Virus record (IMG/VR): IMGVR_UViG_3300017706_001340
Span: 23,770-87,769 of that record
Source: a virus
DNA: 64,000 nt
Direction: 5' to 3' (one strand)
Of this stretch, positions 1,604 to 54,085 are shown in pieces. Below the pieces are notes generated by a model. That model made no database searches. It was not told the origin of the DNA and saw nothing but the letters and a program-made list of their open reading frames with translations. Numbering within the stretch: position 1 is the stretch's first letter; each line of letters opens with the position of its first letter. A program made the translations under genes and the position numbers.

Positions 1604-3127
1604 TTAATTGTTCAATTTAATTGTAAATCCACCGCGACCAGGCTCTCCTGCTTTTGCACCAGTGCTAGCACCAATACTGGCATTAGACATCATGAGAACA
1701 TTAAACGATTTGATTATATTATCACCATATTCACCGGTCATCATTATTGGATATGTATTAGTATAATTCTCACCGGGTACCTCACACATAGCCGCATAAT
1801 ACGCAAAACCCTCCCCGACAGCATAATCAGTGATCTGTATCGCACTTAATATACGTAGACCTATCTCTGTGATATGTGTTTGTTGTAATAAGTTATCATG
1901 AATAGCTGAACTCAGTATCTTCGATATTGCACCCTTCGCGTGTTTTGGTTTACTTGCCATCTTAGAGAGATCAGTAGCGAACGCATCTTGCATCTTTATA
2001 TCTGTTTTAAATTTTCCGAACCCATATTTTGATAGATATGATGAGACGAAGCCAGCACCACCGGTCGGCTTTGATGTACGTGCTCTTAGTGTCTGTTTTA
2101 TATGATTAAATTTTGTTATGATATCTTCTAGATAACCAGCTTTATTATCTACTGTTATTGCATCTATAATCTTCTTGTTATACACTGCCTTGCCACTCAG
2201 TTGTTTAGTTATTTTGTTAGCCATCTCTAGAATCTCATTATAGTCACAGCAATCAGATCGCTGTAATCGTTGATATATATCCTTCAGTGCTTTATGTACA
2301 TCCGGTCTGCTTATATAATATGGGTATATGACTGAAATATCTCGCATCACCGGTTCTTTTATCTCAAATATCTCATTCTGTCTTCTATTTTCATCAAAAT
2401 CATCAAAGCGCTTCATGGCGTATTGTTCGAACTTACTTGCTCTACCAACCACATCTCCCTTCCCGGGTCTGCCGGCAGCTCCCTTAAGCTCGATCTCTTC
2501 ACCAGAAGGTAACATCAAGTCACCCTTCTTCGGGTTAACAGCTTCAGTAAATAAAGTTATTAACACTTCTCCATTACCTACACCGACATTACCTTCAGTG
2601 AAATCACTCAACGTGACTAGTGATTTTATAAACTCTGCATTACCAATCATCGGCATTGTACTTCCAAACTGATTTACAAATTCATTTATAATATTGAATC
2701 TATCTCTCTTCACAAGTGATGTTAAAACCCTGAGATTCTTGCTCTCTTTTAACTCAATAAGCTCATTAACCTCACTGGTTATTCTATCCACGATACTTAT
2801 ATCGTTGAGATCATACATCGTATCTAACCTCTCAACTATTCCTGTAGGTATAGCCTTCCTTGCAGTAGCACTATCCCATCCACCAGACGCACACCACCTA
2901 CCAAACAACTCCGGTAATCTCAACTTAGCTTCATGCGCACCTAATGATAATGCTAAGTCATCTGACATTTTAAATTTTTGATCTTTTAATTTAGAATCAT
3001 CAAACTTTATTCCAATTGTAGCCTCGTTTATCACCTTATTATATAGGTCCTGTTCACGCTCTGGGTGAGTGTAATGATCTCCTCTTCTAATACCTTTGTA
3101 GATATCACCTATCTCCCTGTTACTCAT
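1604..3127 (-). CDS. PD-(D/E)XK nuclease-like protein, 507 aa
   Basis: 507 residues with no close family I can name. Around residues 185-216 it reads GNGEVLITLF, then KKGDLMLPSGEEIELKG. The pattern G-(E), G-D, then E-x-K is the core of PD-(D/E)XK restriction-endonuclease-fold nucleases, preceded by the conserved upstream Glu. The rest is mixed alpha/beta and unassigned. The N-terminal part contains LYNKVINE-A, a possible prohead-protease-type site. Its ATG overlaps the end of the 115-residue upstream gene (TAATG type), and it abuts the ligase-like gene, so a nuclease-like and a ligase-like protein appear to be co-expressed late. Catalytic function is inferred from motif only. Confidence 0.75.
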   Translation of the reverse strand: MSNREIGDIYKGIRRGDHYTHPEREQDLYNKVINEATIGIKFDDSKLKDQKFKMSDDLALSLGAHEAKLRLPELFGRWCASGGWDSATARKAIPTGIVERLDTMYDLNDISIVDRITSEVNELIELKESKNLRVLTSLVKRDRFNIINEFVNQFGSTMPMIGNAEFIKSLVTLSDFTEGNVGVGNGEVLITLFTEAVNPKKGDLMLPSGEEIELKGAAGRPGKGDVVGRASKFEQYAMKRFDDFDENRRQNEIFEIKEPVMRDISVIYPYYISRPDVHKALKDIYQRLQRSDCCDYNEILEMANKITKQLSGKAVYNKKIIDAITVDNKAGYLEDIITKFNHIKQTLRARTSKPTGGAGFVSSYLSKYGFGKFKTDIKMQDAFATDLSKMASKPKHAKGAISKILSSAIHDNLLQQTHITEIGLRILSAIQITDYAVGEGFAYYAAMCEVPGENYTNTYPIMMTGEYGDNIIKSFNVLMMSNASIGASTGAKAGEPGRGGFTIKLNN

Positions 3128-3474
3128 TACAAATCAGTATGTGGGTAGTTGTTGCGCACGATGCGACTCACAAGTTCTTGCATCTCTTCTAAATTTTCTG
3201 TATCAACTAACTTGGTCAATCTAGCATAGTCAACATCATCGATGTGTTTGGGAGCCATGATCAAAGCTTTTCTGATCATCTCCACATAATCCACCTTGAG
3301 TTTAGCTGTATCATCATCACCAGTATCGTCACTCGGTATGGCACTCTCTGGTGTCTCAGTATCTGGTGGTGGAGCAATTCCTTCCGCATCCGGTTCTGCA
3401 GGAGGTGGTGGTACTGCTTCTTCTTCGCTCAGTACACTCAATTTTTCTTCGATCATTGATAAAAATTTGTCCAT
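3127..3474 (-). CDS. Acidic hypothetical late protein
   Basis: 115 residues; the first 60 are rich in Glu, Asp and Pro (PPPPAEPDAEG) and the remainder is a predicted helical segment. No family recognised. The N-terminus MDKFLSMIEE resembles FFSIIEE in the 29173-29622 protein and T4 internal-protein leaders. The late promoter octamer AATAAATA lies 5 bases before the ATG, so the start codon would be at or next to the transcript start. It begins the leftward operon that continues into the nuclease-like and ligase-like genes. Probable head or virion protein by context only. Confidence 0.7.
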   Translation of the reverse strand: MDKFLSMIEEKLSVLSEEEAVPPPPAEPDAEGIAPPPDTETPESAIPSDDTGDDDTAKLKVDYVEMIRKALIMAPKHIDDVDYARLTKLVDTENLEEMQELVSRIVRNNYPHTDL

Positions 3475-3479
3475 AATAG

Positions 3480-3487
3480 TATTTATT
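3480..3487 (-). promoter_or_regulatory. T4-type late promoter (AATAAATA)
   Basis: Octamer AATAAATA on the minus strand, 5 bases from the ATG at 3474. With T4 geometry the first transcribed base would be the A of ATG. It overlaps the stop region of the upstream gene 3483-4115. Confidence 0.65.
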
Positions 3488-4115
3488 GTGTGTTGTGTCT
3501 TTTAGCCCGAGACTTTTCTATGTCACCATATTTATTCATGTCATTACCATACAATTGCTTGTCTGTATCATCCATTCGACTCCATTGTGAAGCCACCCAT
3601 TGATCCCACTTGGCTTGATCACCAGTACCAGGTCTTCCTTGTTGTTGATTGACTGTCGTTTGTATTCCCATCTGACCTTTCTGGAAGCCTGGTTTGCTAG
3701 CTATCTGTTGTTCAGCGTGGTATCGTTGATAACCTTTGAGACCTTTCCAGTGTCTATATTTTGGGTCACTGTTTGCTTGTTGTTCCAACTCTTGATTCAC
3801 ATCTGACCACTGTGCTTGTTGAGCTGATGTCATCCGTTCCCATGAGCTCTTGATTCTCTTCTCAAGATCAATATCACCCTGATTTTTACCAACATCACCT
3901 AGATCTTGAACAACACCACCCACAGCACCAATCATGTCTCCACTCTTGGCTTTGTCCTTAAACGCCTTGCCAGCAGCAGCGAATTGATTCATACCACGCC
4001 CGATATTACCCATTATACCCTCTAGTATTTGATTGGTAGTGACTCGAGGAGCAGTTTCTTCTGGGAAATATTTTCCTTTCATCTCATGTAGTTTATTGAT
4101 GAACTTGTCAGTCAT
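3483..4115 (-). CDS. Hypothetical late protein, 210 aa
   Basis: 210 residues, Gln/Lys/Gly-rich. Residues about 30-75 contain an Ala/Gly-rich, possibly helical stretch; the C-terminal half holds several Trp and charged repeats (W-E-R-M, W-x-x-W) and looks soluble. No family recognised. A perfect late octamer TATAAATA sits 5 bases before the ATG, so it is likely a late gene whose message starts at the initiation codon. It lies in the leftward late block with the nuclease-like and ligase-like genes; a virion or internal protein is possible but unproved. Confidence 0.7.
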   Translation of the reverse strand: MTDKFINKLHEMKGKYFPEETAPRVTTNQILEGIMGNIGRGMNQFAAAGKAFKDKAKSGDMIGAVGGVVQDLGDVGKNQGDIDLEKRIKSSWERMTSAQQAQWSDVNQELEQQANSDPKYRHWKGLKGYQRYHAEQQIASKPGFQKGQMGIQTTVNQQQGRPGTGDQAKWDQWVASQWSRMDDTDKQLYGNDMNKYGDIEKSRAKRHNTQ

Positions 4116-4119
4116 ACTG

Positions 4120-4707
4120 TTATTTATATACCATACCCTTAATCTTCACACTATTAGTATAATGTTGATCAAGATATTTTAGTTTGTATTTTGACGTGAA
4201 TTTTTTAAATTTCTCCATGTTACATGGATGTATTCTTGTTTGTTTGATATCACATATCATCTCCGTATACTTGCCCTTGTTGTTATTATAATATTGTATG
4301 AATGTGTTGAATTTGACCGGAGCTACGAAAACACGTAGAGGTAGTATATTTTTTATTTGCTTCAGATAACGACTCATGAATTGTATGAACTCTGGTCTTG
4401 TGTCTCTCGTGGTACCCTTCCTTGTGCGTTGATTCTCACACTTCTTGAAGTCACACTTGATGTCCTTGTCGCTAAAATATGTCACAATCCTGTTGTCTGT
4501 GTTGATGGTAGACACTGTATCACATAATGTTTTAGTGATGTGATAGTAATATATCACCTTTGTGTCTTGAGACCTTATATTATAATCATTAAACTTGTCA
4601 TATGTATACAAATCTTGTACGATTTGCTTGTATGCATCATGAAACACATACTCAAAGTTTAGTAGATATAAATTATGATTGTTGAGCTCAACATGCCTTA
4701 GTTGCAT
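4120..4707 (-). CDS. Hypothetical protein, 195 aa
   Basis: 195 residues, rich in Tyr, Asn, Lys and Asp, with no signal peptide or membrane segment. Cys residues occur in KCDFKKCENQ near the middle, but no clear zinc site. It follows the RecB-type nuclease gene by 16 bases on the same strand, with no late octamer of its own, so the two are probably co-transcribed. No family recognised. Confidence 0.65.
   Translation of the reverse strand: MQLRHVELNNHNLYLLNFEYVFHDAYKQIVQDLYTYDKFNDYNIRSQDTKVIYYYHITKTLCDTVSTINTDNRIVTYFSDKDIKCDFKKCENQRTRKGTTRDTRPEFIQFMSRYLKQIKNILPLRVFVAPVKFNTFIQYYNNNKGKYTEMICDIKQTRIHPCNMEKFKKFTSKYKLKYLDQHYTNSVKIKGMVYK
4121..4128 (-). promoter_or_regulatory. T4-type late promoter (TATAAATA)
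   Basis: Exact T4 consensus TATAAATA on the minus strand, 5 bases before the ATG at 4115. It overlaps the stop codon of the upstream leftward gene 4120-4707. Confidence 0.7.
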
Positions 4708-4723
4708 GACTAATTATCAACAA

Positions 4724-5221: not shown

Positions 5222-5228
5222 ACTGTAT

Positions 5229-5513: not shown

Positions 5514-5515
5514 AT

Positions 5516-5523: not shown

Positions 5524-5534
5524 GAGTCACTTGC

Positions 5535-5930: not shown

Positions 5931-7384
5931 CGAAATCTACAGTAACATTTGATTATGATGCGAGAAAAAGATTGGCTCTCATGTCGGGAGATCACTTCGA
6001 GGAGATACGAGAACACTTTTCAGTTCATAATGATGCTGCAAAGTTTGCTAGATACAAGAACAGGTTCATACCAAGCAGACGTTATGTTATAACACCTCAA
6101 GGTCGGTTCGAACCCGGACTCTATCACACCATCAAGCAGTATATCCGGGACAACACCGAAGGGTGTAAGATACATATCACTGATAGCTTACGTGAGATAG
6201 TCAACCCGGGATATGACAGAGTGTATCATGAATCCCGTGCCAAGCTGAGCCTGGACTTACGAGACTATCAACAGAGCATTGTGAGTGCTTGTTTGAAATA
6301 TGGTCGTGGTGTGACTATACTGGCAACCGCTGGAGGAAAAACGCTAACAATTGCTAGCTTAATACAGAGTGTTTATCAGAGCTGCAAGCAATTGAAGTGT
6401 TTAATTTTGGTCCCGGATCTCGGTCTTGTGAACCAAACTAGTAGTGACTTTCATGAGTATAGTACAACATTCCTTCACAGTAAGTGGACCGGTAGTGATA
6501 AATTAAACCTGGGTAGCAACGTAATAATTGCCAACATGGGAATTTTACAGAGTAGTAAATCTGAGACAGATTGGATCAAGGACATAGACATGCTGATAAT
6601 TGACGAAGTGCACAAATTACGTAAAGATAACAAGATAAACAAATTGATCAAGACTATTCGAACACCACATAAGTTTGGGTTTACTGGGACCATGCCTGAA
6701 CAGCAGCTCGATCAATGGAATATAATAGGTAAGATAGGCAAAATACTATATGAACGTAACAGTTATCAATTACGTGAACAGCAGTATGTAGCGAAGGCAC
6801 GAGTACAGGTTATAAAAATACTATACAATGAAAAACCACCGGTGTTCCCTGCTGATAGATTTGACCCTTCCGCACGATTTCGACGAGAGCAACAATTCAT
6901 CGCGAAAAATACATTCCGGAACAGTGTCATATCAAAACTGTCCGGGTCGTTTGATAACAATTGTTTGATAATGATAGATTATATTGAACATGGTGAAGAG
7001 TTGTACGGTATATTGCGTTCACAATGTCCTCAAAAGCAGGTGTTTTTCATCCGAGGTGACGTAGCAGTTGAAGAGCGAGACAAAGTTAAAAAATTAATGG
7101 AAAAAACAAGTGATGTGGTGTGTATTGCTATATCAAAAATATTTTCTACAGGAATTAACATCAAAAACCTCCATTATATTGTATTTGCAGGAGGTGGAAA
7201 GGCTAAGGTCAAAATAATACAGAGTATTGGTAGAGGTTTAAGGTTGCATAAGGATAAAAAAGGTGTTATAATTATAGACATAGCAGATATGTTACATTAC
7301 GGATCACAACACTATACAAAGAGACTTAGTTTATATAAAGGAGAGAAAATTGATTATGGTATCAAAAAAATCGAACAAAAGTAA
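5927..7384 (+). CDS. uvsW: UvsW SF2 DNA/RNA helicase
   Basis: 485 residues, similar to T4 UvsW (about 500). Walker A is ATAGGKT near residue 135, the Walker B/DExH box is LIIDEVHKL near residue 224, motif III is FTGTMP, and motif VI is QSIGRGLRL near residue 425. The N-terminal part before the helicase core corresponds to the UvsW substrate-recognition domain. UvsW unwinds branched recombination intermediates and R-loops, driving the switch to recombination-dependent replication. It overlaps uvsY by 4 bases and the late sigma gene by about 29. Confidence 0.93.
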   Translation: MTKSTVTFDYDARKRLALMSGDHFEEIREHFSVHNDAAKFARYKNRFIPSRRYVITPQGRFEPGLYHTIKQYIRDNTEGCKIHITDSLREIVNPGYDRVYHESRAKLSLDLRDYQQSIVSACLKYGRGVTILATAGGKTLTIASLIQSVYQSCKQLKCLILVPDLGLVNQTSSDFHEYSTTFLHSKWTGSDKLNLGSNVIIANMGILQSSKSETDWIKDIDMLIIDEVHKLRKDNKINKLIKTIRTPHKFGFTGTMPEQQLDQWNIIGKIGKILYERNSYQLREQQYVAKARVQVIKILYNEKPPVFPADRFDPSARFRREQQFIAKNTFRNSVISKLSGSFDNNCLIMIDYIEHGEELYGILRSQCPQKQVFFIRGDVAVEERDKVKKLMEKTSDVVCIAISKIFSTGINIKNLHYIVFAGGGKAKVKIIQSIGRGLRLHKDKKGVIIIDIADMLHYGSQHYTKRLSLYKGEKIDYGIKKIEQK

Positions 7385-7808
7385 AAAACCGAAAAAGCCG
7401 CATTACGTCAACTCGAAAGAGTTCACTGAAGATATAAAAGAGTACTACGGTAGTGGTGATGATGATATTGGTGAGAAACTTGGAGAAAGTATTTTTAAAA
7501 TAGCAAAGGGTTTGAGTTATGCACCTAATTTCATCAACTATTCATACAAAGATGATATGGTTGGAGATGCAATTGTTAAGATGTTCTCAGCTCTACAGAG
7601 TAAGAAGTTCAATCTCGAGACCGGTAACAATCCATTCTCTTACTTCACAACAATTGCTTTTCATGCTTTTATCAACAGAATCAAAAAAGAAAAGAAACAG
7701 AGACAGGTTGTGAGTGATTATCAAGAGATGGTATATGAGGAGCTTGCCAGTGAGTATCAAATAGGCAATCAGACTCAATCTAGTGATAGTATAGAGAATG
7801 GTTCTTAA
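7356..7808 (+). CDS. gp55: Late-transcription sigma factor gp55
   Basis: 150 residues. The basic N-terminal stretch is followed by a region-2-like core: SYKDDMVGDAIVKMFSAL, then NPFSYFTTIAFHAFINRIKK, typical of gp55, the minimal sigma factor that recognises the late octamer TATAAATA. T4 gp55 is 185 residues, so this one is short; residues after the core are acidic. The start at 7356 lies inside the end of uvsW and is preceded by AAGGAG at 7338-7343. Its presence fits the many late octamers found across the window. Confidence 0.85.
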   Translation: MVSKKSNKSKKPKKPHYVNSKEFTEDIKEYYGSGDDDIGEKLGESIFKIAKGLSYAPNFINYSYKDDMVGDAIVKMFSALQSKKFNLETGNNPFSYFTTIAFHAFINRIKKEKKQRQVVSDYQEMVYEELASEYQIGNQTQSSDSIENGS

Positions 7809-12275: not shown

Positions 12276-12283
12276 TATTTAGT
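12276..12283 (-). promoter_or_regulatory. Possible late promoter of the NUDIX gene (ACTAAATA)
   Basis: ACTAAATA on the minus strand, 8 bases before the ATG at 12267. It differs from the T4 consensus at the first two positions and abuts the -35 element of the divergent gp43 promoter. Confidence 0.35.
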
Positions 12284-12311
12284 TGACTAAAATGACAATA
12301 ACAAGTATAAT
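12283..12311 (+). promoter_or_regulatory. Sigma-70 promoter of gp43
   Basis: TTGACT (12283-12288), a 17-base spacer and TATAAT (12306-12311). Only 6 bases separate the -10 box from the ATG at 12318, so the transcript probably starts at or within a base or two of the initiation codon. Confidence 0.75.
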
Positions 12312-17907: not shown

Positions 17908-17915
17908 TATTTATG
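17908..17915 (-). promoter_or_regulatory. T4-type late promoter (CATAAATA)
   Basis: CATAAATA on the minus strand, 5 bases before ATG 17902. It overlaps the -35 region of the divergent queC promoter. Confidence 0.65.
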
Positions 17916-17944: not shown

Positions 17945-17953
17945 ATGTGTTAT

Positions 17954-18667
17954 ATGGAAAAGTGTATTGTACCGATCAGTGGAGGTTTAGACTCAACAAC
18001 CATCTTATACATGGCCAAAGCAAGAAACATGCAAATACATGCAGTTAGTTTCAATTACGGTCAACGACACATGGACAGTGAATTAGCGTGTGCACAACAT
18101 CATGTGAATAAAGTGGGTGTGGAGAGTTGGAAAGTTCTAGATATCACCTTCTTCAAGGAAATTGCAAACACGAGCTCATTGACAAATAGCGATATAGATG
18201 TTGCTGATGCACGTGATGTTGTGGGTGATCCTCAGACAGTTAATTATGTCCCAAACCGCAACATGATGATGTTGAGTATATGTGCTGCATATGCTGAAAG
18301 TCTTCAAGCTGAAACTGTGTTTCACGGAGCTGCTCTTGTTGATAGCCAGGCTGGTTTCTGGGATGGTAGTGTAGAGTTCTTAGAGTATATAAACAATCTA
18401 CTGTCCTTGAATCGCCGAGATCGAGTCAAGGTGGAGTGTCCTTTGATTGAGCTATCTAAAGAGCAAATTATACACAAGGCTGTGTCACTTGGAGTTGATG
18501 TCTCTAAAACATGGACGTGTTACAGAGGTGGCGAACGACCATGTGGTTATTGTACGGCTTGTAGTTCTCGTATCGCTGGATTCATGTCTGCTGGCTATAT
18601 AGATCCATTGGATTATCAGAGAACAGACATACCATGGAGTGGTCAGCAACCAATATCAGCACTATAG
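17954..18667 (+). CDS. queC: QueC, 7-cyano-7-deazaguanine (preQ0) synthase
   Basis: 237 residues. The PP-loop PISGGLDSTT binds ATP near the N-terminus; FNYGQRH and PNRNMMM are conserved QueC segments; the C-terminal zinc site is TWTCYRGGERPCGYCTAC. QueC converts carboxy-deazaguanine to preQ0. In phages this pathway can feed 7-deazaguanine modification of DNA. The other synthesis genes (FolE, QueD, QueE) and the DNA transglycosylase DpdA are not in this window. An in-frame ATG at 17945 lies immediately after the -10 box, so 17954 is preferred. Confidence 0.95.
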   Translation: MEKCIVPISGGLDSTTILYMAKARNMQIHAVSFNYGQRHMDSELACAQHHVNKVGVESWKVLDITFFKEIANTSSLTNSDIDVADARDVVGDPQTVNYVPNRNMMMLSICAAYAESLQAETVFHGAALVDSQAGFWDGSVEFLEYINNLLSLNRRDRVKVECPLIELSKEQIIHKAVSLGVDVSKTWTCYRGGERPCGYCTACSSRIAGFMSAGYIDPLDYQRTDIPWSGQQPISAL

Positions 18668-23006: not shown

Positions 23007-23891
23007 ATGAGTACATTCACAAAATCCATGTTCGCGAGTATCAAAGATGCTCTAACAAAAGAAGGTAGTAGTAATAAGACTGCAGATATAATGAGAACCA
23101 AACCAGGTAATTCATATGAGGTAAGATTATTACCTAACGTTGAAGATCCAAGTAAGACCTTTTATCATTACTTTAGTCATGGTTGGACTAGTTTCAGTAC
23201 TGGTCAGTATGTCTCAGCATTGAGTCCTATGACTTGGGGTGATAGAGATCCAATTTCTGAATACAGGCTCAAAGTTTATAGAGGTGGTTCTCCGGAAGAA
23301 AAGGCTAAGTCGGATTCAATCTTCCGGAGAGAGAATTGGCTAGTTAATGCGTATGTTGTGAATGATCCTGATGATCCTGAGAACAATGATACAGTGAAAA
23401 TTTTGCGCTTTGGTAAACAATTACATAAGATCATCATGGAGGGTATTACTGGTGAGGATTCAGATCAGTTCGGTGAGAAAATTTTTGATCTATCTAGCAG
23501 TGGTTGTACATTCAGAGTGAGGTGTGAGAAGCAGGGTGATTATCCTACATATGTATCAAGTAAATTCTTGATGCCTGCGGAAATACCTGGCATGACTGAC
23601 TCGAGAATTAAAGATGTGTATGATAGCTGCCACACGCTTGATGATACGTTCAGATCAAAAACATATGAAGAGTTGAAGCAGATGTTAGATGAACATTTTC
23701 ATTGTAAGGATCCTAGTGCAGTGGAAGATTCTCCAACAGTCACAGTCCCGTCGAGTGTCAGAGAGGATACTGATACAGAGGAAGAGGTTCCTATGGATTT
23801 TGGTGATAAATCGTCAAAATCATCTAATGATGATGACCCACTTGAAGACGATAAGGTCAAGGAGTTGTTAGCTGGTTTAGATGATGTCTAA
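23007..23891 (+). CDS. gp32: gp32 single-stranded DNA-binding protein
   Basis: 294 residues (T4 gp32 is 301). A short basic N-terminus is followed by an OB-fold core with many aromatic residues (FYHYFSHGWTSF) and an acidic C-terminal tail (SSNDDDPLEDDKVKELLAGL), the protein-interaction arm of gp32. The Cys/His zinc ligands of T4 gp32 are not present in the expected spacing. An A/T-rich region with TATAAT at 22986-22991 lies upstream but lacks a good -35. Context with gp45 and gp41 supports the call. Confidence 0.85.
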   Translation: MSTFTKSMFASIKDALTKEGSSNKTADIMRTKPGNSYEVRLLPNVEDPSKTFYHYFSHGWTSFSTGQYVSALSPMTWGDRDPISEYRLKVYRGGSPEEKAKSDSIFRRENWLVNAYVVNDPDDPENNDTVKILRFGKQLHKIIMEGITGEDSDQFGEKIFDLSSSGCTFRVRCEKQGDYPTYVSSKFLMPAEIPGMTDSRIKDVYDSCHTLDDTFRSKTYEELKQMLDEHFHCKDPSAVEDSPTVTVPSSVREDTDTEEEVPMDFGDKSSKSSNDDDPLEDDKVKELLAGLDDV

Positions 23892-25180: not shown

Positions 25181-25510
25181 ATGAAGAATAAAATTTACAC
25201 ATTATCATACTTTAAGAAAAGACTTAAGGACTCAGGATACATTGTATGGGATATTATGAATAAGTATGCCATGGAGGATCCAAGGAAGTGGACTGTGCTT
25301 GTCAATCCTAGCATTGAGTCAGTATACATAACATGTATAGTCAATAGAAATGAGCTAGGTCAACTTCCGGAATTTGAGATAAACGACGGTGGTATGCGGT
25401 TTCAGAAAAATTTGACTTTAATGACTAGTAGTATGGAGGTTATTATAAACTTACTGTCGAGAAAAGGTATTGTGGCGGATGATTCTTTATTGTATAAGAA
25501 AGATAAATAA
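25181..25510 (+). CDS. Hypothetical protein, 109 aa
   Basis: 109 residues, basic, with YFKKRLKDSGYIVW at the N-terminus and a C-terminal helix. No family recognised. It sits where T4 has clamp-loader and regulatory genes near gp45, but it is too small to be gp62 and shows no similarity I can point to. Confidence 0.65.
   Translation: MKNKIYTLSYFKKRLKDSGYIVWDIMNKYAMEDPRKWTVLVNPSIESVYITCIVNRNELGQLPEFEINDGGMRFQKNLTLMTSSMEVIINLLSRKGIVADDSLLYKKDK
25502..25509 (+). promoter_or_regulatory. Possible late promoter (GATAAATA)
   Basis: GATAAATA overlapping the stop of the upstream gene, 7 bases before ATG 25517. Confidence 0.45.
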
Positions 25511-27104: not shown

Positions 27105-27939
27105 CGTACATCCAGCATCCATCTTCCTGGGTAGTATAAGGAAGTATGCAACGATGTTCAGTTGTTGTAATATATATTCAATTTGGGACAAGAGGCTCAT
27201 AAGAGGTGTCAAAAACTATCGTAGACTTGCTAAAAATGTTGAATATAAGGGTAACAGAGACGTAGTTAAGAATGAACATGTATTTAGTTACGAGGAATCA
27301 ACAACAGAGTTATTGAACTGTTTGGGTATTAAAAATATGTACCCTGGAATACTTGAAGCAGATGATGTAATTGCTTGGTTATGCAAGCAAGGTGATGACC
27401 GTAAGGTGATTGTAAGTGTTGATCAAGACATGCTACAATTGGTGAGTGAAAATGTTGATGTTTATAGTCCCATAAAGGATAAGCATATAAATCTAGACAA
27501 CTTTGAGGAACATACAAATGTATCAATTGATCAATTTTTGAGATACAAATCATTGATTGGTGACAAATCCGACAATTTACCTGGTCTAGATAAATGTGGA
27601 CCTAAGACAGCTAAAAAATTAATTACAGAGTGTCCGAATGACAATTTATTAATTGAAAAGGTAGGAAACGAGAGGTTGAGAAATTACTTTGTGAATTTAG
27701 AGATGATTGATCTCAAGCAAGGAGAGTTGAAGCACCCAGAGGATACAAAACTGTATATCAAACAGTATGATGAATTACAAGAACATCAACCGGATTTTGA
27801 TACCTTTAGATCGAAGTGTGAGTCACTTAATATGAATAGTATTGTTAATCGTATAGATGACTGGAAACAGATATTCACGAATAGTAATATAAATGATAAG
27901 CTTGAAAGCATTGTAAATAGTCTATCCTTGAATAAATAG
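27019..27939 (+). CDS. rnh: RNase H, FEN1-like 5' nuclease
   Basis: 306 residues, matching T4 RNase H (305). Acidic metal ligands appear in ILIDSSNLLHRA near residue 8, EADDVIAWL near 117, SVDQDML near 133 and GDKSDNLPG near 180, followed by the helix-hairpin-helix GPKTAKKL. It removes RNA primers from Okazaki fragments. Because the first catalytic Asp is near residue 9, the start must be this early, so the 86-base overlap with the previous gene is real. Confidence 0.9.
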   Translation: MNQKPKTILIDSSNLLHRAVWIAENTRNNVHPASIFLGSIRKYATMFSCCNIYSIWDKRLIRGVKNYRRLAKNVEYKGNRDVVKNEHVFSYEESTTELLNCLGIKNMYPGILEADDVIAWLCKQGDDRKVIVSVDQDMLQLVSENVDVYSPIKDKHINLDNFEEHTNVSIDQFLRYKSLIGDKSDNLPGLDKCGPKTAKKLITECPNDNLLIEKVGNERLRNYFVNLEMIDLKQGELKHPEDTKLYIKQYDELQEHQPDFDTFRSKCESLNMNSIVNRIDDWKQIFTNSNINDKLESIVNSLSLNK

Positions 27940-29632: not shown

Positions 29633-29640
29633 TATTTATG
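29633..29640 (-). promoter_or_regulatory. T4-type late promoter (CATAAATA)
   Basis: CATAAATA on the minus strand, 10 bases before ATG 29622. Confidence 0.6.
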
Positions 29641-29647
29641 CTAGTTG

Positions 29648-29655
29648 TATAAGTA
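29648..29655 (+). promoter_or_regulatory. Late promoter variant (TATAAGTA)
   Basis: TATAAGTA, one mismatch from the T4 octamer, 10 bases before ATG 29666. The same ATAAGTATTTAT string occurs before TerL. Confidence 0.45.
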
Positions 29656-32644: not shown

Positions 32645-32652
32645 TATTTATA
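32645..32652 (-). promoter_or_regulatory. T4-type late promoter (TATAAATA)
   Basis: Exact consensus TATAAATA on the minus strand, 6 bases before ATG 32638. It directly abuts the T-run of the terminator at 32653-32683. Confidence 0.75.
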
Positions 32653-33275: not shown

Positions 33276-33569
33276 AATTGTAGAAGTATTTATTTGCTCC
33301 TTGGCAATTTTCCCGTGTTTTTCTTTGTTTTCTTTTAATCTATCACTTATTTTTTTCATGTAATAGTCACTATCCTCACCAGAATTCTCTGGAGTCACTA
33401 CATCTTCGACACCATCTGGAGTGTTCTCCTCTGGTTTCAAATCACCTGCAAGCTCAGAATCTCCGAGTGCTGATGGACAATCTCCGGATTTCCAGACCTT
33501 GTTATCTTCATTTTCTGTTAACAAGTCGTACGCTTGCTCAATGTTCTTGATATCTCTTGACTCATTCAC
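32709..33569 (-). CDS. Acidic repeat protein (long form)
   Basis: 286 residues from a GTG start. Order: NIEQAYDLLTE helix, acidic linker, basic KEKHGK section, then internal Met (33275) beginning NIFDKLYSTIMEGDDPF, a very acidic Gly/Asp/Glu stretch, a helix SLPRDLAEKLHEALMDQLE, and two copies of PDPKPLGGHGDR-HP-AGN. High acidity and position beside TerL suggest a prohead-core or internal head protein, as in T4 gp67/gp68, but no homology is established. A CATAAATA octamer lies 5 bases from the GTG. Confidence 0.7.
   Translation of the reverse strand: MNESRDIKNIEQAYDLLTENEDNKVWKSGDCPSALGDSELAGDLKPEENTPDGVEDVVTPENSGEDSDYYMKKISDRLKENKEKHGKIAKEQINTSTIMSNEPTNIFDKLYSTIMEGDDPFADIGGMGDEDTGGDEEFGDDELEIGGDEITISLPRDLAEKLHEALMDQLEDSEDELGDELEDSESDNPFGNDDEMLGDSVVSEPDPKPLGGHGDRQHPYAGNKSNKVKSSKTGSTDGGTADGGTVKEDPDPKPLGGHGDRTHPDAGNTGSGSNKINNPKSKAIGD
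32769..32957 (-). repeat. Imperfect direct repeat encoding GGHGDR units
   Basis: Two imperfect copies of about 54 bases (32769-32822 and 32904-32957) encode the PDPKPLGGHGDR-HP-AGN peptide twice, separated by a Ser/Thr/Gly-rich spacer. Confidence 0.85.
33287..33294 (-). promoter_or_regulatory. Internal late promoter (AATAAATA)
   Basis: AATAAATA on the minus strand within the coding region, 11 bases before the in-frame ATG 33275. Confidence 0.5.
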
Positions 33570-33576
33570 ATAAGTA
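33569..33576 (+). promoter_or_regulatory. Late promoter variant (CATAAGTA) of TerL
   Basis: CATAAGTA, two mismatches from TATAAATA, 11 bases before ATG 33588. It overlaps the divergent octamer by 2 bases. Confidence 0.4.
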
Positions 33577-33582
33577 TTTATG
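33575..33582 (-). promoter_or_regulatory. T4-type late promoter (CATAAATA)
   Basis: CATAAATA on the minus strand, 5 bases before the GTG start at 33569. It overlaps the promoter-like octamer of TerL on the other strand. Confidence 0.6.
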
Positions 33583-33587: not shown

Positions 33588-35327
33588 ATGTCAACAAAAC
33601 AAACCACAACACCAAAAAAACCGAAAGTAGATCCAAAACATGTATACATGGGTAATCAAAACCTACCCACGAGCAAGGCTGAGTTTGAGTGGACACCTAC
33701 TATGGTCAGAGATCTTAAGAAGTGCCAGAAAAACTTACTATATTTCGCTGAAAATTTCTTTACAATCATAAATCTTGATCGCGGTAGGGAGAAGATAACA
33801 CTATTTAAATGTCAGAAGAAGGTATTACGAGCACTACGAGACAACAGATTCAACATTGTGTTAGCCTCTCGACAGGTAGGTAAAACGACAATGATGACCA
33901 TATACACTTTATGGGTAGCTTGTTTCCTCGAGGATCAACGTATACTTGTTGTAGCAAATAAAGAGCAGACAGCAATAAACATTTTCAAGCGAATCAGACT
34001 GGCGTACGAACAACTACCAAACTGGATTAAACCTGGTGTAGTTGAGTACGGTAAGACAAGCATGACATTAACCAACGGTAGTAGTATCGGAATCAGCACT
34101 ACCAGTAGTGATGCTGGTCGAGGTGATAGTTGTAATTGTTTGGTACTAGATGAGCTAGCATTTATTGACAATCATCTTGTTGAGAGTTTCTGGAAGTCAG
34201 TGTATCCGATAATATCATCTAGTAAGAAGAGTAAGATCTTCATCGCTAGTACACCAAATGGAACAGGTAACTTGTTTCACGATCTATATAGTAATGCAAT
34301 CCGAGGAAAAAATAATTGGTGTGCGAGTCGCATCGACTGGTGGGAAATTCCTGGTAGGGACGAGAAGTGGAAACAGGACACAGTACAGTCACTCGGAAGT
34401 ACAGACATTTTTGATCAGGAGTTTGGATGTCAGTTCATAGAAACTGGTGAGAGTGTGTTGGATGAGGAGTTGATACGTAAGAGCTCACTGTCCATACAAG
34501 ATCCGGAGCATCTATTCGATGATGGTAAATATAAAGTATGGTCCTTGCCTGATGAAACACGATCTTATGCAATTGGCGTGGATATATCAGAAGGTGTAGG
34601 TGAGGCTGCTAGTGTCATACAGGTAATTGACATAACAGACTTGACAGAGATTGAACAGGTAGCAGTATATCACAGCAATACTATCAGTCCGTACAACTTC
34701 ACAACAAAATTATTAGAGGTACTACAACAATGGGGGTCTCCACCCGCGTTGATAGAGAGGAACAATTGCGGTGCACAAGTTGTAGATACATTAAAGAATG
34801 TATATGGTTACGAGAATATAGTCAATTATACCCCAAGTAAAAATCAAGCAATTGAACGTCCTGGAGTAATAGCACATACAAACACCAAATATAAAGGTGT
34901 TGTCAACATGAAATATTGGTTGAGTGAAGTTTATTCGGTTGTGTTGCGAGACACTAACACATTAGAGGAGTTGAAAACATTCGTAAGATATCCTAATGGT
35001 ACATGGAAAGCGATTAAAGGTACAAATGTGCATGATGACAGAGTCATGAGTTTGATCTGGTCACTCATGATACTTGAAACATCAATAACCGAACAGTTTT
35101 TTGAGATTTTACAGGTGGATAAAAATAACAAGCCGGCAGAATTAGGTCGTTTGGACTTTGGTTATCGACAGTTCAGTGACACACTCTCACTTTATAGTAA
35201 CGAGAAACAACAAAATAAATACAGTGCACTGCCCATATATATGGATAGTGAGAACTTCGATAATACAAGCGAAGCAAACAACCCGGAGCTTGAAGAAATG
35301 CAAGAACAAGGATGGACAACAGTATGA
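33588..35327 (+). CDS. gp17: gp17 terminase large subunit
   Basis: 579 residues (T4 gp17 is 610). ATPase: Walker A ASRQVGKTT near residue 90, Walker B CLVLDELAF near 183, coupling motif ASTPNGTGN near 220. Nuclease: GVDISEGVG near 329 with the first catalytic Asp, IERNNCG near 388, and HDDRVMSL near 483. It packages DNA into the prohead and cuts concatemers. A small-terminase candidate is at 50729, 17 kb away. Confidence 0.96.
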   Translation: MSTKQTTTPKKPKVDPKHVYMGNQNLPTSKAEFEWTPTMVRDLKKCQKNLLYFAENFFTIINLDRGREKITLFKCQKKVLRALRDNRFNIVLASRQVGKTTMMTIYTLWVACFLEDQRILVVANKEQTAINIFKRIRLAYEQLPNWIKPGVVEYGKTSMTLTNGSSIGISTTSSDAGRGDSCNCLVLDELAFIDNHLVESFWKSVYPIISSSKKSKIFIASTPNGTGNLFHDLYSNAIRGKNNWCASRIDWWEIPGRDEKWKQDTVQSLGSTDIFDQEFGCQFIETGESVLDEELIRKSSLSIQDPEHLFDDGKYKVWSLPDETRSYAIGVDISEGVGEAASVIQVIDITDLTEIEQVAVYHSNTISPYNFTTKLLEVLQQWGSPPALIERNNCGAQVVDTLKNVYGYENIVNYTPSKNQAIERPGVIAHTNTKYKGVVNMKYWLSEVYSVVLRDTNTLEELKTFVRYPNGTWKAIKGTNVHDDRVMSLIWSLMILETSITEQFFEILQVDKNNKPAELGRLDFGYRQFSDTLSLYSNEKQQNKYSALPIYMDSENFDNTSEANNPELEEMQEQGWTTV

Positions 35328-35905
35328 ATGACACTATACAGCAATCAATTTTAAACAAAAGCAAGAAGGATAAATTTGTATTCATCCTCACACTACCTGA
35401 GGCTATGAAGGAAATCGCATACACACAATCAGAGAACCGAGATGATGATCACGTGCTACCTGATACATTACAATTCAGCGTGTATGGCGCTCTGTTACCA
35501 TCTGTGCGAGTAGATAGTGGGAACATACGATATGGCGGACAAGCTGTGAAGTTCAGTGCACATAGCCGTCCGGAATATGATAATGTTAGAGTAAACTTTA
35601 CTGTTGACAATAGATTCAACAACTACTGGGTAATATGGAAGTGGCTAAACATCATGAATGATGATGAATCCGCTGTTTTTATGTCAACACGTGACATAAC
35701 AACACAAGAATCCATATTTAAACAATATCAAGGCACAGCAACAATGTATGCACTAGATGAATATAACAAACAAGTGGCAAGATTCGACTATCAGGGGGTT
35801 GTCCCTGTTAGTTTAGGTGAGATAGACTACAATTACAGGACTACAGACGAGATTGATACCACGTTTGAGTTCTCTTTTTCGAAGCTCACTCCAACTTTGT
35901 TATGA
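35324..35905 (+). CDS. Tail-tube-fold protein between gp17 and gp18
   Basis: 193 residues. PDTLQFSVYGALLPS, VRVNFTVDNRFNNYWVIW and the C-terminal PVSLGEIDYNY parallel positions in the tube protein gp19 (PTSVGDVSYD), suggesting a paralogue of the tube fold. It may be a tail completion or tube-associated protein. ATGA overlap with TerL; the ATG at 35324 is preferred over 35312 for that coupling. Confidence 0.65.
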   Translation: MNDTIQQSILNKSKKDKFVFILTLPEAMKEIAYTQSENRDDDHVLPDTLQFSVYGALLPSVRVDSGNIRYGGQAVKFSAHSRPEYDNVRVNFTVDNRFNNYWVIWKWLNIMNDDESAVFMSTRDITTQESIFKQYQGTATMYALDEYNKQVARFDYQGVVPVSLGEIDYNYRTTDEIDTTFEFSFSKLTPTLL

Positions 35906-35932: not shown

Positions 35933-35940
35933 AATAAATA
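35933..35940 (+). promoter_or_regulatory. Late promoter (AATAAATA) of gp18
   Basis: AATAAATA, 18 bases before the ATG 35959, leaving about 13 leader bases that contain a Shine-Dalgarno AGAGG at 35946-35950, 8 bases before the ATG. Confidence 0.65.
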
Positions 35941-35958
35941 ATTCCAGAGGTAACAATT

Positions 35959-39064: not shown

Positions 39065-39072
39065 ACTAAATA
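39065..39072 (+). promoter_or_regulatory. Late promoter variant (ACTAAATA) and SD of gp19
   Basis: ACTAAATA lies 17 bases before ATG 39090; AGGAGG (39076-39081), 8 bases before the ATG, is the strongest Shine-Dalgarno in the window. Confidence 0.5.
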
Positions 39073-39089
39073 ATTAGGAGGACAAATTT

Positions 39090-39638
39090 ATGCCAGATGT
39101 AAGACAGACAATATCAGATTTCTATAGAGTAGCACAAGAACGGGATTTCAGCCGTGATTTCCAGTTCCGTGTTCTCAATATTCAAAACGGTGACAGTAGT
39201 GTTACCATAAATGAGGACGATCTAGTGTACGCCAAGGGTGGTAGTATACCGGGCCGGACGATCAATGTATCCGAGATACCATTTATGGGACTAAACTTCA
39301 GGGTACCTGGTGGAGCCACATATACAGGTGAGTATACACTCAGCTTTTATAGTGACCGAGTCGATAGCTTGAGAACATTGTTGTTAAACTGGACTAGAGA
39401 CACATTCGATGATGCGACTAGTACCGGTAATTACTTCATTGCAAAAGAAACATCGATTGTTGACTTAGTACAACTAGACACACAGTTGAATCGAGTGAGT
39501 CAATACACACTCGTTGGTGCATTTCCTACAAGTGTTGGTGATGTATCATACGATCCATCTGGTAGTGGTGCTCCTGTTGAGTTTGAAGTCACATTAGGTT
39601 ATCAATACGTTCGTAACCAGAGCTTCCAGTCTTTGTAA
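39090..39638 (+). CDS. gp19: gp19 tail tube protein
   Basis: 182 residues (T4 gp19 is 163). FSRDFQFRVLNI, MGLNFRVPGGATY, LRTLLLNWTRDTFDD and VGAFPTSVGDVSYD follow the gp19 tube fold, and the position directly after gp18 is as in T4. It polymerises into the inner tail tube. It has a strong Shine-Dalgarno and is followed by a terminator. Confidence 0.92.
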   Translation: MPDVRQTISDFYRVAQERDFSRDFQFRVLNIQNGDSSVTINEDDLVYAKGGSIPGRTINVSEIPFMGLNFRVPGGATYTGEYTLSFYSDRVDSLRTLLLNWTRDTFDDATSTGNYFIAKETSIVDLVQLDTQLNRVSQYTLVGAFPTSVGDVSYDPSGSGAPVEFEVTLGYQYVRNQSFQSL

Positions 39639-39698: not shown

Positions 39699-39706
39699 AT
39701 TAAATA
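39699..39706 (+). promoter_or_regulatory. Late promoter variant (ATTAAATA)
   Basis: ATTAAATA, 9 bases before ATG 39716, restarting transcription after the gp19 terminator. Confidence 0.45.
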
Positions 39707-39715: not shown

Positions 39716-40828
39716 ATGTTTGATGATATTAGAAGAGTTGGAGAAAAAGTCGATGATTTACTCGGTACAGATATATTCCCGTTTAATTATCCATTCAGTC
39801 ACACTGAAAACTTCTTACAACATATGGACAAGTGGGAGTTCGCAATACCAAACAAGTTTTTATGGTTGATTAACATAGAAGAGGCTGTACATCCCAACAG
39901 GATGACAAGTAAAAACTTCTCATCACTACACCCGATACCCAAATTTATACGCTCTTCTAACATGCACGCTTTGGAACCAGGTGATAATGGTCAACATTCA
40001 GGATCCATCAATGCACCCGGTTCACAAACAAAAGGATGGGACATAGATCAGGCTAGAGTTGAGATAACTCAGGATACATACATGAAGACCGGTGGTGGTA
40101 AGCATGGATGCTTGCTTGCTCAAGGTGTAGTCTTACCAGGTGAAAACTACGAAATACGAGATGTACCCATTCAAAACAACATGGGGTTTCTTCCTGGTAA
40201 AGTGGGAGGAAATCGTTCCGGCATGCAACCACTCGTTATACAATGGAGAGAAACTAATAGAAGCTTTACAGATATGGTGATTCGACCATGGCTTATACTC
40301 GCCTCGCACCTAGGACTTGTTGCTAGACATTCATCTGACAATAGAAACATTAAAGCTAACATCAGTATCGTGCAGCTCGCCAAAACATATCAATACACAC
40401 CACTAGTTGAAAGAAAAATCTGGAGATTTTACAATTGTGTACCAGCGAGTATAAACTCCAATGAGCTAACATATCAAGATGGTAACAATTTTGATATATA
40501 CACAACTCATTGGCACTACACACACTATACAATAGAGAGTCTACCTGACCAAAACATGAATGATTACCTAAACAAACAAGGATTCAAGAGATTTGTCATG
40601 GGTATGGCTGATAAATTGTTGAGTAAGAGTAGAGCTTACCGTAAGTTGAAGGGTAAAATAGCAAAAGTGGAAGAATTTGTGGATAAAGCAGCAAACATCA
40701 AAAAGAAAATAAACAAGGTTGTTGGTTTTCTCGGTGGCAATAAAGGACCCAGACCACAACAGGGTCCACGTGGTAGATTGTCTGGTAGAGGTGGATCCGC
40801 TCGATTTACATCTGATGATATAGAGTAA
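39716..40828 (+). CDS. gp54: gp54-like baseplate tube initiator
   Basis: 370 residues (T4 gp54 is 320). The middle and C-terminal part (VIQWRETNRSFTDMVIRPWL; ERKIWRFYNCVPASI; TTHWHYTHYTIES) has the strand and K-I-W-x-F pattern of tube-fold baseplate proteins gp54/gp48. It probably starts tube polymerisation on the baseplate. The C-terminal 90 residues are basic, with Gly/Arg (GPRGRLSGRGG). Choice between gp54 and gp48 is uncertain. Confidence 0.6.
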   Translation: MFDDIRRVGEKVDDLLGTDIFPFNYPFSHTENFLQHMDKWEFAIPNKFLWLINIEEAVHPNRMTSKNFSSLHPIPKFIRSSNMHALEPGDNGQHSGSINAPGSQTKGWDIDQARVEITQDTYMKTGGGKHGCLLAQGVVLPGENYEIRDVPIQNNMGFLPGKVGGNRSGMQPLVIQWRETNRSFTDMVIRPWLILASHLGLVARHSSDNRNIKANISIVQLAKTYQYTPLVERKIWRFYNCVPASINSNELTYQDGNNFDIYTTHWHYTHYTIESLPDQNMNDYLNKQGFKRFVMGMADKLLSKSRAYRKLKGKIAKVEEFVDKAANIKKKINKVVGFLGGNKGPRPQQGPRGRLSGRGGSARFTSDDIE

Positions 40829-41761: not shown

Positions 41762-41769
41762 AATAAATA
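41762..41769 (+). promoter_or_regulatory. T4-type late promoter (AATAAATA)
   Basis: AATAAATA, 6 bases before ATG 41776; predicted leader about 1 base. Confidence 0.6.
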
Positions 41770-42593: not shown

Positions 42594-42601
42594 CATAAAT
42601 A
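42594..42601 (+). promoter_or_regulatory. T4-type late promoter (CATAAATA)
   Basis: CATAAATA, 10 bases before ATG 42612 of the tape measure gene. Confidence 0.6.
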
Positions 42602-45600: not shown

Positions 45601-45704
45601 CTGTAAACAGTGGCGGAAACAACACTACAGTTAACAACGTCACGGTCGATTCAGACATAATGAAATTTAGAGACAAGGTTGTAGGGAGACTATACAACAA
45701 GTGA
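42612..45704 (+). CDS. Tail tape measure-like protein
   Basis: 1030 residues. A charged coiled-coil N-terminus is followed by tandem Trp-rich repeats of about 33-36 residues (near residues 165-310; core W-x-GIKTWFTNF...LIP-x-SI-x-x-WW), hydrophobic segments near 330-470, long Lys/Glu/Ala-rich helices, and an Asn/Thr/Val-rich C-terminal section. Large size, helical character, and placement among hub genes fit a tape measure (T4 gp29 position), although that protein is only 590 residues. The C-terminus ends in FRDKVVGRLYNK. Confidence 0.75.
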   Translation: MEENITELVTTLTSLVEKLDDKSTKQGVSDARNSYNPDDAFDSEEKHLKDQQKQQAKLNAEESEKLDKKRKNPRKILQTVMPIKVMEFDKRAIKQLQSIMISPVQIEEEQDKKPNKSSWWPALLAGVVVVWDKLKDAWLVIRTTVGDWATAMSKWWKKFKKTMNIRWSRLKGWFNKFKVGDLIPQSIKKWWIQFRKGVSTKWLGVKSWFNKFKVSSLIPESVKKWWKNMNKSMVKRWSGIKTWFTNFSPKKLIPQSIRGWWSKLNFSKKWTGIKTWFTNFSPKKLIPSGIRNWWKGFDMGKKWLSFKTFFVDLPGKVKALIPQSIRTALSTVVKTMKAALLPITAFFTGLSGLFGGGKGANSTSIFTKIAKFFGPTNPVIKGIFTFLKTAGSVLGKLFLPITIIMEAFNFVTGFMEGFKKDGIIGGIREGVKSVFNSLVAFPLDLLKSGVSWIAGKLGFKEVEKTLDEFSFKELFTDLFDKLFGVIDMSIGFIKNLINDGAERVKDMFRSEEEIKARKAAGARAKNKEAAMKETFQRSVSSDGMNKILAAKKTSDENEAEIIESQTARWRDAMASAARQTKDEKEFRELVIKQLENDKKGSSRTFLAMQQKAVGSDWEKNALKNFKKVRGQNVVDTNAMGDLAQTLANQRAQTRRFNDTVKVVTDDWKKSGSLKLGDMKIDLTALKNDKSKIDPKIVEHYESLIRMRDETNNNELKIQYGAMIKSLDNVGVKEAVDHIKAQQAETEKFKADLEDYDRAIKQGGPQRILQTPEKLDLISTNYEMPQEERLKEWKLTAGPQPTKPTRSLEETKAYLNAISSVNVDQLKVNEQVKAAEAAAIKQTKLVSPVVPQPSKQTSIDPGRLSELELTLEQPLPELNTKQASDHIKQSGDKINQGAQSLHFETLEGWPRPQSPYAWDYVKMAGESITRGSKQLHEQAIQYEKAASNTNKSAQKNNQNIEKKMSEMVNIMTETVGIQKKTLNALEQHGLIDKQGNTTVNSGGNNTTVNNVTVDSDIMKFRDKVVGRLYNK
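43107..43540 (+). repeat. Trp-rich tandem repeats in tape measure gene
   Basis: Four to five units of about 99-108 bases. The best pair, 43324-43372 and 43423-43471, is 49 bases with one mismatch at a 99-base period, encoding GIKTWFTNFSPKKLIP. Confidence 0.85.
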
Positions 45705-45710
45705 TAAATA
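45703..45710 (+). promoter_or_regulatory. T4-type late promoter (GATAAATA)
   Basis: GATAAATA overlapping the tape measure stop codon, 5 bases before ATG 45716. Confidence 0.6.
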
Positions 45711-46150: not shown

Positions 46151-46152
46151 TT

Positions 46153-49477: not shown

Positions 49478-49478
49478 C

Positions 49479-51187: not shown

Positions 51188-51196
51188 ACGTTTAAT

Positions 51197-51204
51197 TATT
51201 TATA
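51197..51204 (-). promoter_or_regulatory. T4-type late promoter (TATAAATA)
   Basis: Exact TATAAATA on the minus strand, 9 bases before ATG 51187. Confidence 0.7.
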
Positions 51205-51209
51205 ATAAG

Positions 51210-51238
51210 TTGTGGAAAATCAAAGCCGATTATATTAT
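51210..51238 (+). promoter_or_regulatory. Possible sigma-70 promoter
   Basis: TTGTGG (51210-51215), a 17-base spacer and TATTAT (51233-51238), 9 bases before ATG 51248; an overlapping TATAAT (51236-51241) gives a 20-base spacer. It would drive the 49-aa gene, dut and gp44. Confidence 0.45.
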
Positions 51239-51247
51239 AATAGAAAG

Positions 51248-52960: not shown

Positions 52961-52961
52961 A

Positions 52962-53537
52962 TTATGAAATATATTTTGCAGTGTATGAATTTGCACCGGT
53001 GACACCGGGTAATTTGGTGTTTTTATCTGCTAACCGCCGGTTAGTCTTATCACTCATACCAGTTTGTTTGACCGGGTCATTCATCAAATCTTCAGTTTGA
53101 CTATCCTCCGTATCCTCTCCAGTCAGCTCTTTAGGTTTCAGGTCGACATCATCTTTACGCTTGAGTGATTCAGGTACCTCTGGTGGTCCCTCAACGTTAC
53201 CAAGTTCAACCAGCTGTTGTGGTACAGTTAGAAAATGACCGTTCCAGTAACCTGGGGCAGTCTCTTGCGCGATATCTAGAAAAAAGCCATCAACACCTGA
53301 TGCCTGATCAACACTTGAATTTACTGAAGGTCTCACTGCTTGTACGCTACTTACTCGGAGAATTAGATCAGATGCAGCTAATTCTCTTATCTTGTCGAGC
53401 ACCTGTGCCGGTGCATCTTTACACCAATCTTCCGACTCCCAACCTTCTTTAAACTTTATAATATCACCAGTGAGATACCCTCCACCCTGCATTCTAGTGA
53501 AATTACTCTCAAATATTGTATCAAATCTACTTGTCAT
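52962..53537 (-). CDS. Conserved T4-like phage protein, 191 aa
   Basis: 191 residues. N-terminal SRFDTIFESNFTRMQGGGYL and GDIIKFK, a central alpha/beta domain ending in FLTVPQQLVELG, then a Pro/Asp/Glu linker. The pattern matches a conserved hypothetical protein of marine T4-like phages. A GATAAATA late octamer lies 6 bases from the ATG. Probably virion or assembly-related, from context only. Confidence 0.65.
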   Translation of the reverse strand: MTSRFDTIFESNFTRMQGGGYLTGDIIKFKEGWESEDWCKDAPAQVLDKIRELAASDLILRVSSVQAVRPSVNSSVDQASGVDGFFLDIAQETAPGYWNGHFLTVPQQLVELGNVEGPPEVPESLKRKDDVDLKPKELTGEDTEDSQTEDLMNDPVKQTGMSDKTNRRLADKNTKLPGVTGANSYTAKYIS

Positions 53538-53543
53538 CGTAAT

Positions 53544-53551
53544 TATTTATC
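53544..53551 (-). promoter_or_regulatory. T4-type late promoter (GATAAATA)
   Basis: GATAAATA on the minus strand, 6 bases before ATG 53537. Confidence 0.6.
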
Positions 53552-53578
53552 AATCCTCCGCTCATTTCCAGCCTCCAT

Positions 53579-53586
53579 TATAAATA
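53579..53586 (+). promoter_or_regulatory. T4-type late promoter (TATAAATA)
   Basis: Exact TATAAATA, 7 bases before ATG 53594, driving the gp25-gp6 wedge operon. Confidence 0.75.
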
Positions 53587-53593
53587 ATTATGT

Positions 53594-54085
53594 ATGTCTA
53601 TAAACATTAACAGAGTAGGAGCACCAACTCCAGTGGATTCTGTATCCAAAAATCAGTACAGAGATCTGTACTTGGATCTTGCTGAAAACACAAAACCTTC
53701 GAATAACGCTTCATACGGCAAAACAACTCAGACTGACATACATGCATCTATTGATGAAGGTTGTATCATGAACAGTTTAACAAATCTGTTCAACACAGTA
53801 CCAGGACAAAAAATATTGAATCCCGAGTTCGGTATAAATCTTATGCAATGGTTGTTCGAACCTGTTAATGAGTTCACAGCGCGTGAGATAGGTGAGGCGA
53901 TACAATTCGGTATAACAAAATTTGAACCCAGGATACAACTCACGCATGTATCAGTAATTTCAGATCAAGAAAAAAATCAGTACATAATCAAGCTAGCTAT
54001 ACAGATTCCTAGCTTAAATATAAGTACAACCCATGATGCAGCCTTGAATCAATTTGGATTTGAATTTTTAACAGAAAATGAGTAA
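53594..54085 (+). CDS. gp25: gp25 baseplate wedge protein
   Basis: 163 residues (T4 gp25 is 132; the N-terminus is extended). PGQKILNPEFGINLMQWLFEP and KFEPRIQL (EPR motif) are hallmarks of the gp25/gpW baseplate family that nucleates sheath attachment. It overlaps gp6 by 8 bases. Confidence 0.93.
   Translation: MSININRVGAPTPVDSVSKNQYRDLYLDLAENTKPSNNASYGKTTQTDIHASIDEGCIMNSLTNLFNTVPGQKILNPEFGINLMQWLFEPVNEFTAREIGEAIQFGITKFEPRIQLTHVSVISDQEKNQYIIKLAIQIPSLNISTTHDAALNQFGFEFLTENE

Follow-up and report, generated by a model that had tools for sequence, protein, structure and literature searches.

The promoters of an uncultured T4-like phage, both the late ones and the early, host-type ones, lie so close to start codons that the messages starting at them are very probably leaderless or carry a leader of 1–6 nt. 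The phage is represented by the 87,769-base IMG/VR record IMGVR_UViG_3300017706_001340, of which we analysed positions 23,770–87,769 (a stretch of 64,000 nucleotides, hereafter the window) together with related viral loci. Throughout, the gap is the number of bases between a promoter element and the start codon, and positions are window coordinates. The leaderless reading is favoured because the gaps peak at the value that would place +1 on the start codon, the arrangement recurs across a large clade, genes led by the late octamer lack Shine-Dalgarno motifs, the octamers tend to stand at the heads of transcription units, and a gp55-type late sigma factor is encoded.

Late octamers next to start codons

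According to the available text of PMC1524935, the T4 late octamer spans positions −13 to −6, so that with a gap of 5 the first base of the start codon would be +1. This arithmetic, on which a first-pass annotation made from the letters of the window had relied, holds by the T4 register, and all of the octamer-to-start gaps given there (17/17) were reproduced. The core ATAAATA is present in 14 of the 17 octamers, the remaining three being the variants TATAAGTA (start 29666), CATAAGTA (33588), and ATTAAATA (39716). Enrichment over shuffled controls, proposed there as a check, is present as well. In the window, ATAAATA is followed by ATG 5–7 bases on at 10 sites, a count reached by 0/500 dinucleotide shuffles (mean 1.76, maximum 6), and at 5–11 bases at 17 sites (mean 3.86, maximum 12, again 500 dinucleotide shuffles). 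The whole record holds 16 sites at 5–7 (mean 2.4, maximum 8, 200 shuffles), and there, with ATG at 5–7, ATAAATA ranks top of 21 permutations of its letters. When starts were assigned over the whole record by a caller blind to the motif, the nearest octamer lay no more than 60 nt from a start in 24 cases, and in 18 of these the gap was 5–11.

The loci of relatives were sorted by terminase identity into a close (about 80% or more), a mid (54–62%), and a far group (35–38%). In the mid group, ATG stands exactly 5 bases on from 73 of 180 deduplicated ATAAATA sites and no neighbouring gap value is comparable, while the far group displays no short-gap peak (ATG at exactly 5 for 5/81 ATAAATA sites). 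Among 69 viral loci fetched later, which are different contigs yet homologous to the earlier ones, the nearest octamer stands at a gap of exactly 5 to the called start in 76 of 180 cases and at 12 or fewer in 160. ATAAATA-N5-ATG occurs 142 times in the 16 whole records behind such loci, versus 14 times for the reversed pattern, and the same gene, the sheath gene for example, recurs at the same gap across contigs. The 267 open reading frames (ORFs) with a gap of 5 usually start with AUG (ATG in 220, GTG in 47); 249 of them have no upstream in-frame ATG, and the next downstream in-frame ATG lies a median of 54 codons on. The count of octamer-to-start distances in related genomes, also suggested by the first-pass annotation, hence gives a sharp peak at gap 5, and the short gap is a trait of the clade.

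The likeness to the late promoters of T4 resides in the same octamer (TATAAATA), in the gp55-type sigma factor encoded, and in the location of the sites before structural genes. The leaders of T4 fit a Shine-Dalgarno motif, with 15/18 nearest octamers 20–30 nt from the start, whereas the gap here is mostly 5–11, with no such motif. By the motif-blind caller, 0/46 nearest octamers of T4, Syn9, S-PM2, and phiM9 lie at gap 0–11 (range 12–60, mostly 20–30), which bears out the earlier remark that the arrangement is unlike T4.

Three cultured phages, the SAR11 pelagimyophages HTVC008M and Mosig EXVC030M and the methylophage Melnitz EXVC044M, share the exact gap-5 late octamer for some genes. Whole-record matches at gap 5 number 9 in HTVC008M, 8 in Mosig, and 4 in Melnitz, versus 1, 0, and 0 for the reversed control. 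They coincide with annotated starts at 7/7 sites in HTVC008M 1–50000 and 4/5 in Mosig 70001–118000; in the 2 kb of Melnitz annotation examined, one gap-5 site runs across its edge and agrees with the start of the gene there. The seven gap-5 genes of HTVC008M are those at 6280, 7562, 16007, 18916, 19456, 31132, and 49760. These phages differ from the clade in retaining Shine-Dalgarno motifs on other genes, in having longer gaps too, and in forming a separate branch in the terminase tree, and they appear to mix both modes of initiation. Since they belong to another branch, the late arrangement would have arisen twice or been lost in others. Late promoter prediction in pelagimyophages was unsuccessful, as stated in the available text of PMC7029224, and octamers abutting the starts may explain this failure.

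Octamers precede several baseplate, tube, and terminase genes in the window. The sites at gap 5 are, on the minus strand, AATAAATA at 3480–3487 (ATG 3474), TATAAATA at 4121–4128 (ATG 4115), and CATAAATA at 17908–17915 (ATG 17902) and at 33575–33582 (GTG 33569), and, on the plus strand, GATAAATA at 45703–45710 (ATG 45716). At gap 6 we find TATAAATA at 32645–32652 (−, ATG 32638), AATAAATA at 41762–41769 (+, ATG 41776 of a baseplate hub-like gene), and GATAAATA at 53544–53551 (−, ATG 53537). The last of these stands back to back with TATAAATA at 53579–53586 (+), which lies at gap 7 from ATG 53594 of a baseplate wedge gene, and a second gap of 7 separates GATAAATA at 25502–25509 (+) from ATG 25517. 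The longer gaps are 9 for the variant ATTAAATA at 39699–39706 (+, ATG 39716 of a tail tube-like gene) and for TATAAATA at 51197–51204 (−, ATG 51187); 10 for CATAAATA at 29633–29640 (−, ATG 29622) and at 42594–42601 (+, ATG 42612) and for the variant TATAAGTA at 29648–29655 (+, ATG 29666); and 11 for AATAAATA at 33287–33294 (−, ATG 33275) and for the variant CATAAGTA at 33569–33576 (+, ATG 33588 of the terminase large subunit gene), which shares bases with the start codon of the gene on the other strand. The sites at gaps 9–11 are predicted to yield short leaders of about 4–6 nt and are not strictly leaderless. Further sites had been overlooked, for example a late octamer at 27931–27938 (+) at gap 5 to ATG 27944 of a 61-residue ORF, one at gap 5 to the start at window base 2, and one at gap 9 to GTG 21428.

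The minus-strand starts at 33569 and 33275 are nested in a single frame, each with a late octamer of its own. The product of the inner start begins NIFDKLY and is the version that resembles the proteins of relatives; both a longer and a shorter product may be made. Another feature of this region is the presence of three tail-tube-like genes (phrog_45), at 35312–35905, 39090–39638, and 39716–40828.

The gp55-type late sigma factor is encoded at 7356–7808 on the plus strand, the match to phrog_234 being placed at 7350–7808 (E 1.6e-32), and a gp55 turned up in 12 of the 15 clade records searched, which are fragments. The window protein is devoid of the C-terminal tail of T4 gp55, which, judged by eye, is absent from 7/7 aligned clade sequences. 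In T4 this tail binds the clamp, gp45, and late transcription in the clade may depend less on the sliding clamp. The C-terminal motif is present in T4, HTVC008M, and KVP40 and absent also from the rows of phiM9, P10VF, Syn9, S-PM2, and P-SSM2. A search for gp45 with PF02916 matched T4 only, missed even Syn9, and is uninformative about the clade.

Early promoters and Shine-Dalgarno signals

A second promoter class emerged de novo: among 565 clade genes that have no short-gap octamer, no combination of hexamer and position gives a stronger signal than TATAAT at gap 6 (25 sites versus 0.66 expected); the same test applied to T4 and pelagiphages puts Shine-Dalgarno hexamers on top. A −35 match of at least 4/6, mostly at a spacing of 16–17, accompanies 20 of the 25 TATAAT sites and one of at least 5/6 accompanies 9, compared with 23/75 and 1/75 in the control. 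In a full sigma-70 scan, gap 6 accounts for 20/62 promoters in the first seven records, 35/95 in eight records outside the de novo search (one of which, G004, had contributed a 21.7 kb piece to an earlier TATAAT histogram), and 2/53 in seven other phages. Because the sigma-70 −10 element occupies −12 to −7, gap 6 is the leaderless register of sigma-70 itself. Two promoter classes that have different registers and would both place +1 on the start codon are hard to explain otherwise. The same −10-to-start logic is applied to leaderless genes in the available part of PMC3160421.

In the window, an early-type sigma-70 promoter, TTGACT-17-TATAAT (12283–12311, +), precedes ATG 12318 of the DNA polymerase gene at gap 6, and a −10 element TATAAT (51236–51241, +) precedes, also at gap 6, ATG 51248 of a 49-residue ORF situated before the dUTPase gene. 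In a related record, ten TATAAT-N6-ATG matches are clustered on one strand at the record's end (G014:C1:218781-228385), perhaps representing a block of small early genes.

Shine-Dalgarno 4-mers are found before 8/72 genes without a short-gap octamer in this record, near background (7 in the background window). The same count gives 106/199 in T4 (background 11), 81/166 in HTVC008M (20), 70/161 in Mosig, and 80/164 in Melnitz. Pooled over the clade, 16/537 octamer genes at gap 0–11 carry such a 4-mer, as befits leaderless messages, versus 131/1102 genes without an octamer within 40 nt. Over half of the non-octamer genes here (39/70) start less than 10 nt past the end of the preceding same-strand gene or overlap it, so translational coupling may serve the genes internal to operons.

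Some major virion genes are exceptions. Before the tail sheath gene (35959) the octamer is at gap 18 and the leader contains GAGG (35934–35958, +); before the tail tube-like gene (39090) CTAAATA stands at gap 17 and the leader contains AGGAGG (39066–39089, +). An AAAGGA-like leader precedes the capsid genes of three related records (G004, G010, and G005) but not that of a fourth (G006). The Shine-Dalgarno motif appears where the leader would be long enough for it, although the numbers at gaps 15–20 are small (4/22).

Unit heads and competing explanations

A divergent upstream neighbour is commoner for octamer genes than for other genes, in this record (8/20 versus 10/70, Fisher p 0.017), in the close group (16/31 versus 18/113, p 1e-4), and in the mid group (26/52 versus 20/196, p 2e-9). 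The clade loci contain 23 divergent pairs with back-to-back octamers, several of them merely 38–40 bp start to start. Examples of shared divergent intervals, of about 38–62 bp, are window 53535–53596, L041 4133–4170, and L057 3486–3523.

These data bear on whether the octamer acts in DNA or in RNA. Were it an AU-rich translation-initiation element with the true promoters further upstream, it would resemble the AU-rich start signals described for groups devoid of Shine-Dalgarno motifs (PMC3160421, available text), and this record lacks such motifs too. We regard this as very unlikely and disfavour an RNA-level start element replacing the promoter, given the association of the octamer with divergent unit heads and the existence of a second, dissimilar promoter class that possesses a −35 box and is shifted the same way; in addition, the octamer is the T4 late promoter motif, found here in phages that encode gp55, and the same motif lies 12–60, mostly 20–30, bases before the start in T4, cyanophages, and phiM9. 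It is likewise unlikely that the promoters are real but that the bulk of the message comes from upstream promoters, or from a shifted +1, and thus has leaders. Read-through is conceivable for the 6 of 20 octamer genes of this record that begin less than 10 nt after a same-strand gene, and the gaps here are spread over 5–11; yet the peaks are sharp, at exactly 5 for the octamer in relatives and exactly 6 for sigma-70, and divergent pairs about 38 bp start to start offer no space for a leader. That the whole pattern stems from chance in AT-rich DNA, combined with start codons chosen to suit the motif, is vanishingly improbable. The window has 38% GC, and the motif had indeed guided start choice in the first-pass annotation, but both effects are ruled out by the shuffles, letter permutations, reversed patterns, motif-blind caller, and replication in the later-fetched loci, besides the independent GenBank annotation of the HTVC008M gap-5 sites.

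Several observations weigh against leaderless messages. The gaps of this record range over 5–11 rather than peaking at 5 only. The clade gp55 proteins have no T4-type C-terminal tail, so their register is assumed from T4. Genes internal to operons have neither promoter nor Shine-Dalgarno motif, and loss of the motif is by itself no proof of leaderlessness. Raw whole-record counts of TATAAT-N6-ATG fail to separate the clade (120 versus 71 for the control, 16 records) from ten named phages (47 versus 31); TATAAT histograms by raw ATG give a weak signal, and for TATAAT at gap 6 the clade is set apart from other phages only by the gene-start test. Finally, for every clade member leaderlessness is a prediction from sequence. 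We infer both the position of +1 in the clade and the route by which ribosomes start.

Leaderless or near-leaderless late messages, as put forward in the first-pass annotation, are thus supported as the best reading, with a change of scope: confining them to late genes is too narrow because early sigma-70 promoters likewise abut starts, and calling the effect general is too broad because the sheath (35959) and tube-like (39090) genes retain a short leader that carries a Shine-Dalgarno motif. In the mechanism we propose, gp55-type late promoters would have been shifted up against the genes, so that transcripts would begin with the start codon at gap 5 and 1–6 nt ahead of it at gaps 6–11. Host-type sigma-70 promoters would have been shifted likewise (gap 6), and early messages beginning there would also be leaderless. 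Ribosomes would initiate by the leaderless route, on an AUG located at the 5′ end or close to it; translation of operon-internal genes, equally devoid of Shine-Dalgarno motifs, would be coupled to that of the preceding gene, and a minimal leader with the motif would persist in a few major virion genes, namely those of sheath and tube.

The phage lineage and its proposed leaderless expression

Family searches identified a T4-like gene set comprising DNA polymerase, UvsX, UvsY, DNA helicase, SbcC/SbcD-like nuclease subunits, a DnaB-like helicase, primase, clamp loader, terminase, sheath, tube, baseplate parts, and gp55. The closest annotated phage terminases share about 38% identity (phiM9). In the terminase tree, which carries a long-branch warning, the 10 rows of the clade group with full support on a branch of their own, distinct from the T4, rhizobial, and cyanophage groups, and the clade falls outside Kyanoviridae and Straboviridae. 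At least 527 terminase relatives, a figure that includes more distant ones, are present in IMG/VR among the matches listed, and by this measure the clade appears to be large.

To look for a host, genome_contigs was searched with the terminase and then with a terminase alignment, and neither retrieved a relative; tRNA scans gave no clue to the host. A Bacteroidetes-type host is disfavoured, the early promoters being TTGACA/TATAAT-like; such hosts use a different −10 element. QueC-, QueE-, and QueD-like genes are observed at window 17945–18667 and at L002 6450–7244 and 7232–7840. They probably belong to a 7-deazaguanine pathway, which perhaps serves DNA modification.

Leaderless bacterial genes are alike in that a −10 element, TA-like and about 10–12 bp before the start, lies too near for a leader (PMC3160421, available text). 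They are host genes of some bacteria, whereas here a phage clade would use both the host sigma factor and its own late sigma factor. Leaderless phage mRNA exists, as exemplified by lambda cI in the available parts of PMC3160421 and PMC9031893; that is a single message, while the pattern predicted for the clade is genome-wide. No description of leaderless late messages in T4-like phages was found by title or abstract opening in the open-licence literature.

Late transcription in T4 is a textbook case, its messages being leadered and Shine-Dalgarno-led. A T4-related clade that seemingly does without leaders, in early as in late genes, would demonstrate that a lytic infection can run on leaderless translation. 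In these genomes the pattern also provides a rule by which start codons can be chosen and promoters located. HTVC008M and Mosig are isolates, in which the late part of the proposal is testable. We lean towards the wider view that the whole gene expression of a large lineage is built on leaderless messages, with Shine-Dalgarno initiation nearly abandoned except in a few major virion genes, and that either leaderless translation prevails in the hosts or host ribosomes are shifted toward it during infection. If this is true, a shift of host ribosomes to leaderless initiation would favour the phage's own messages.

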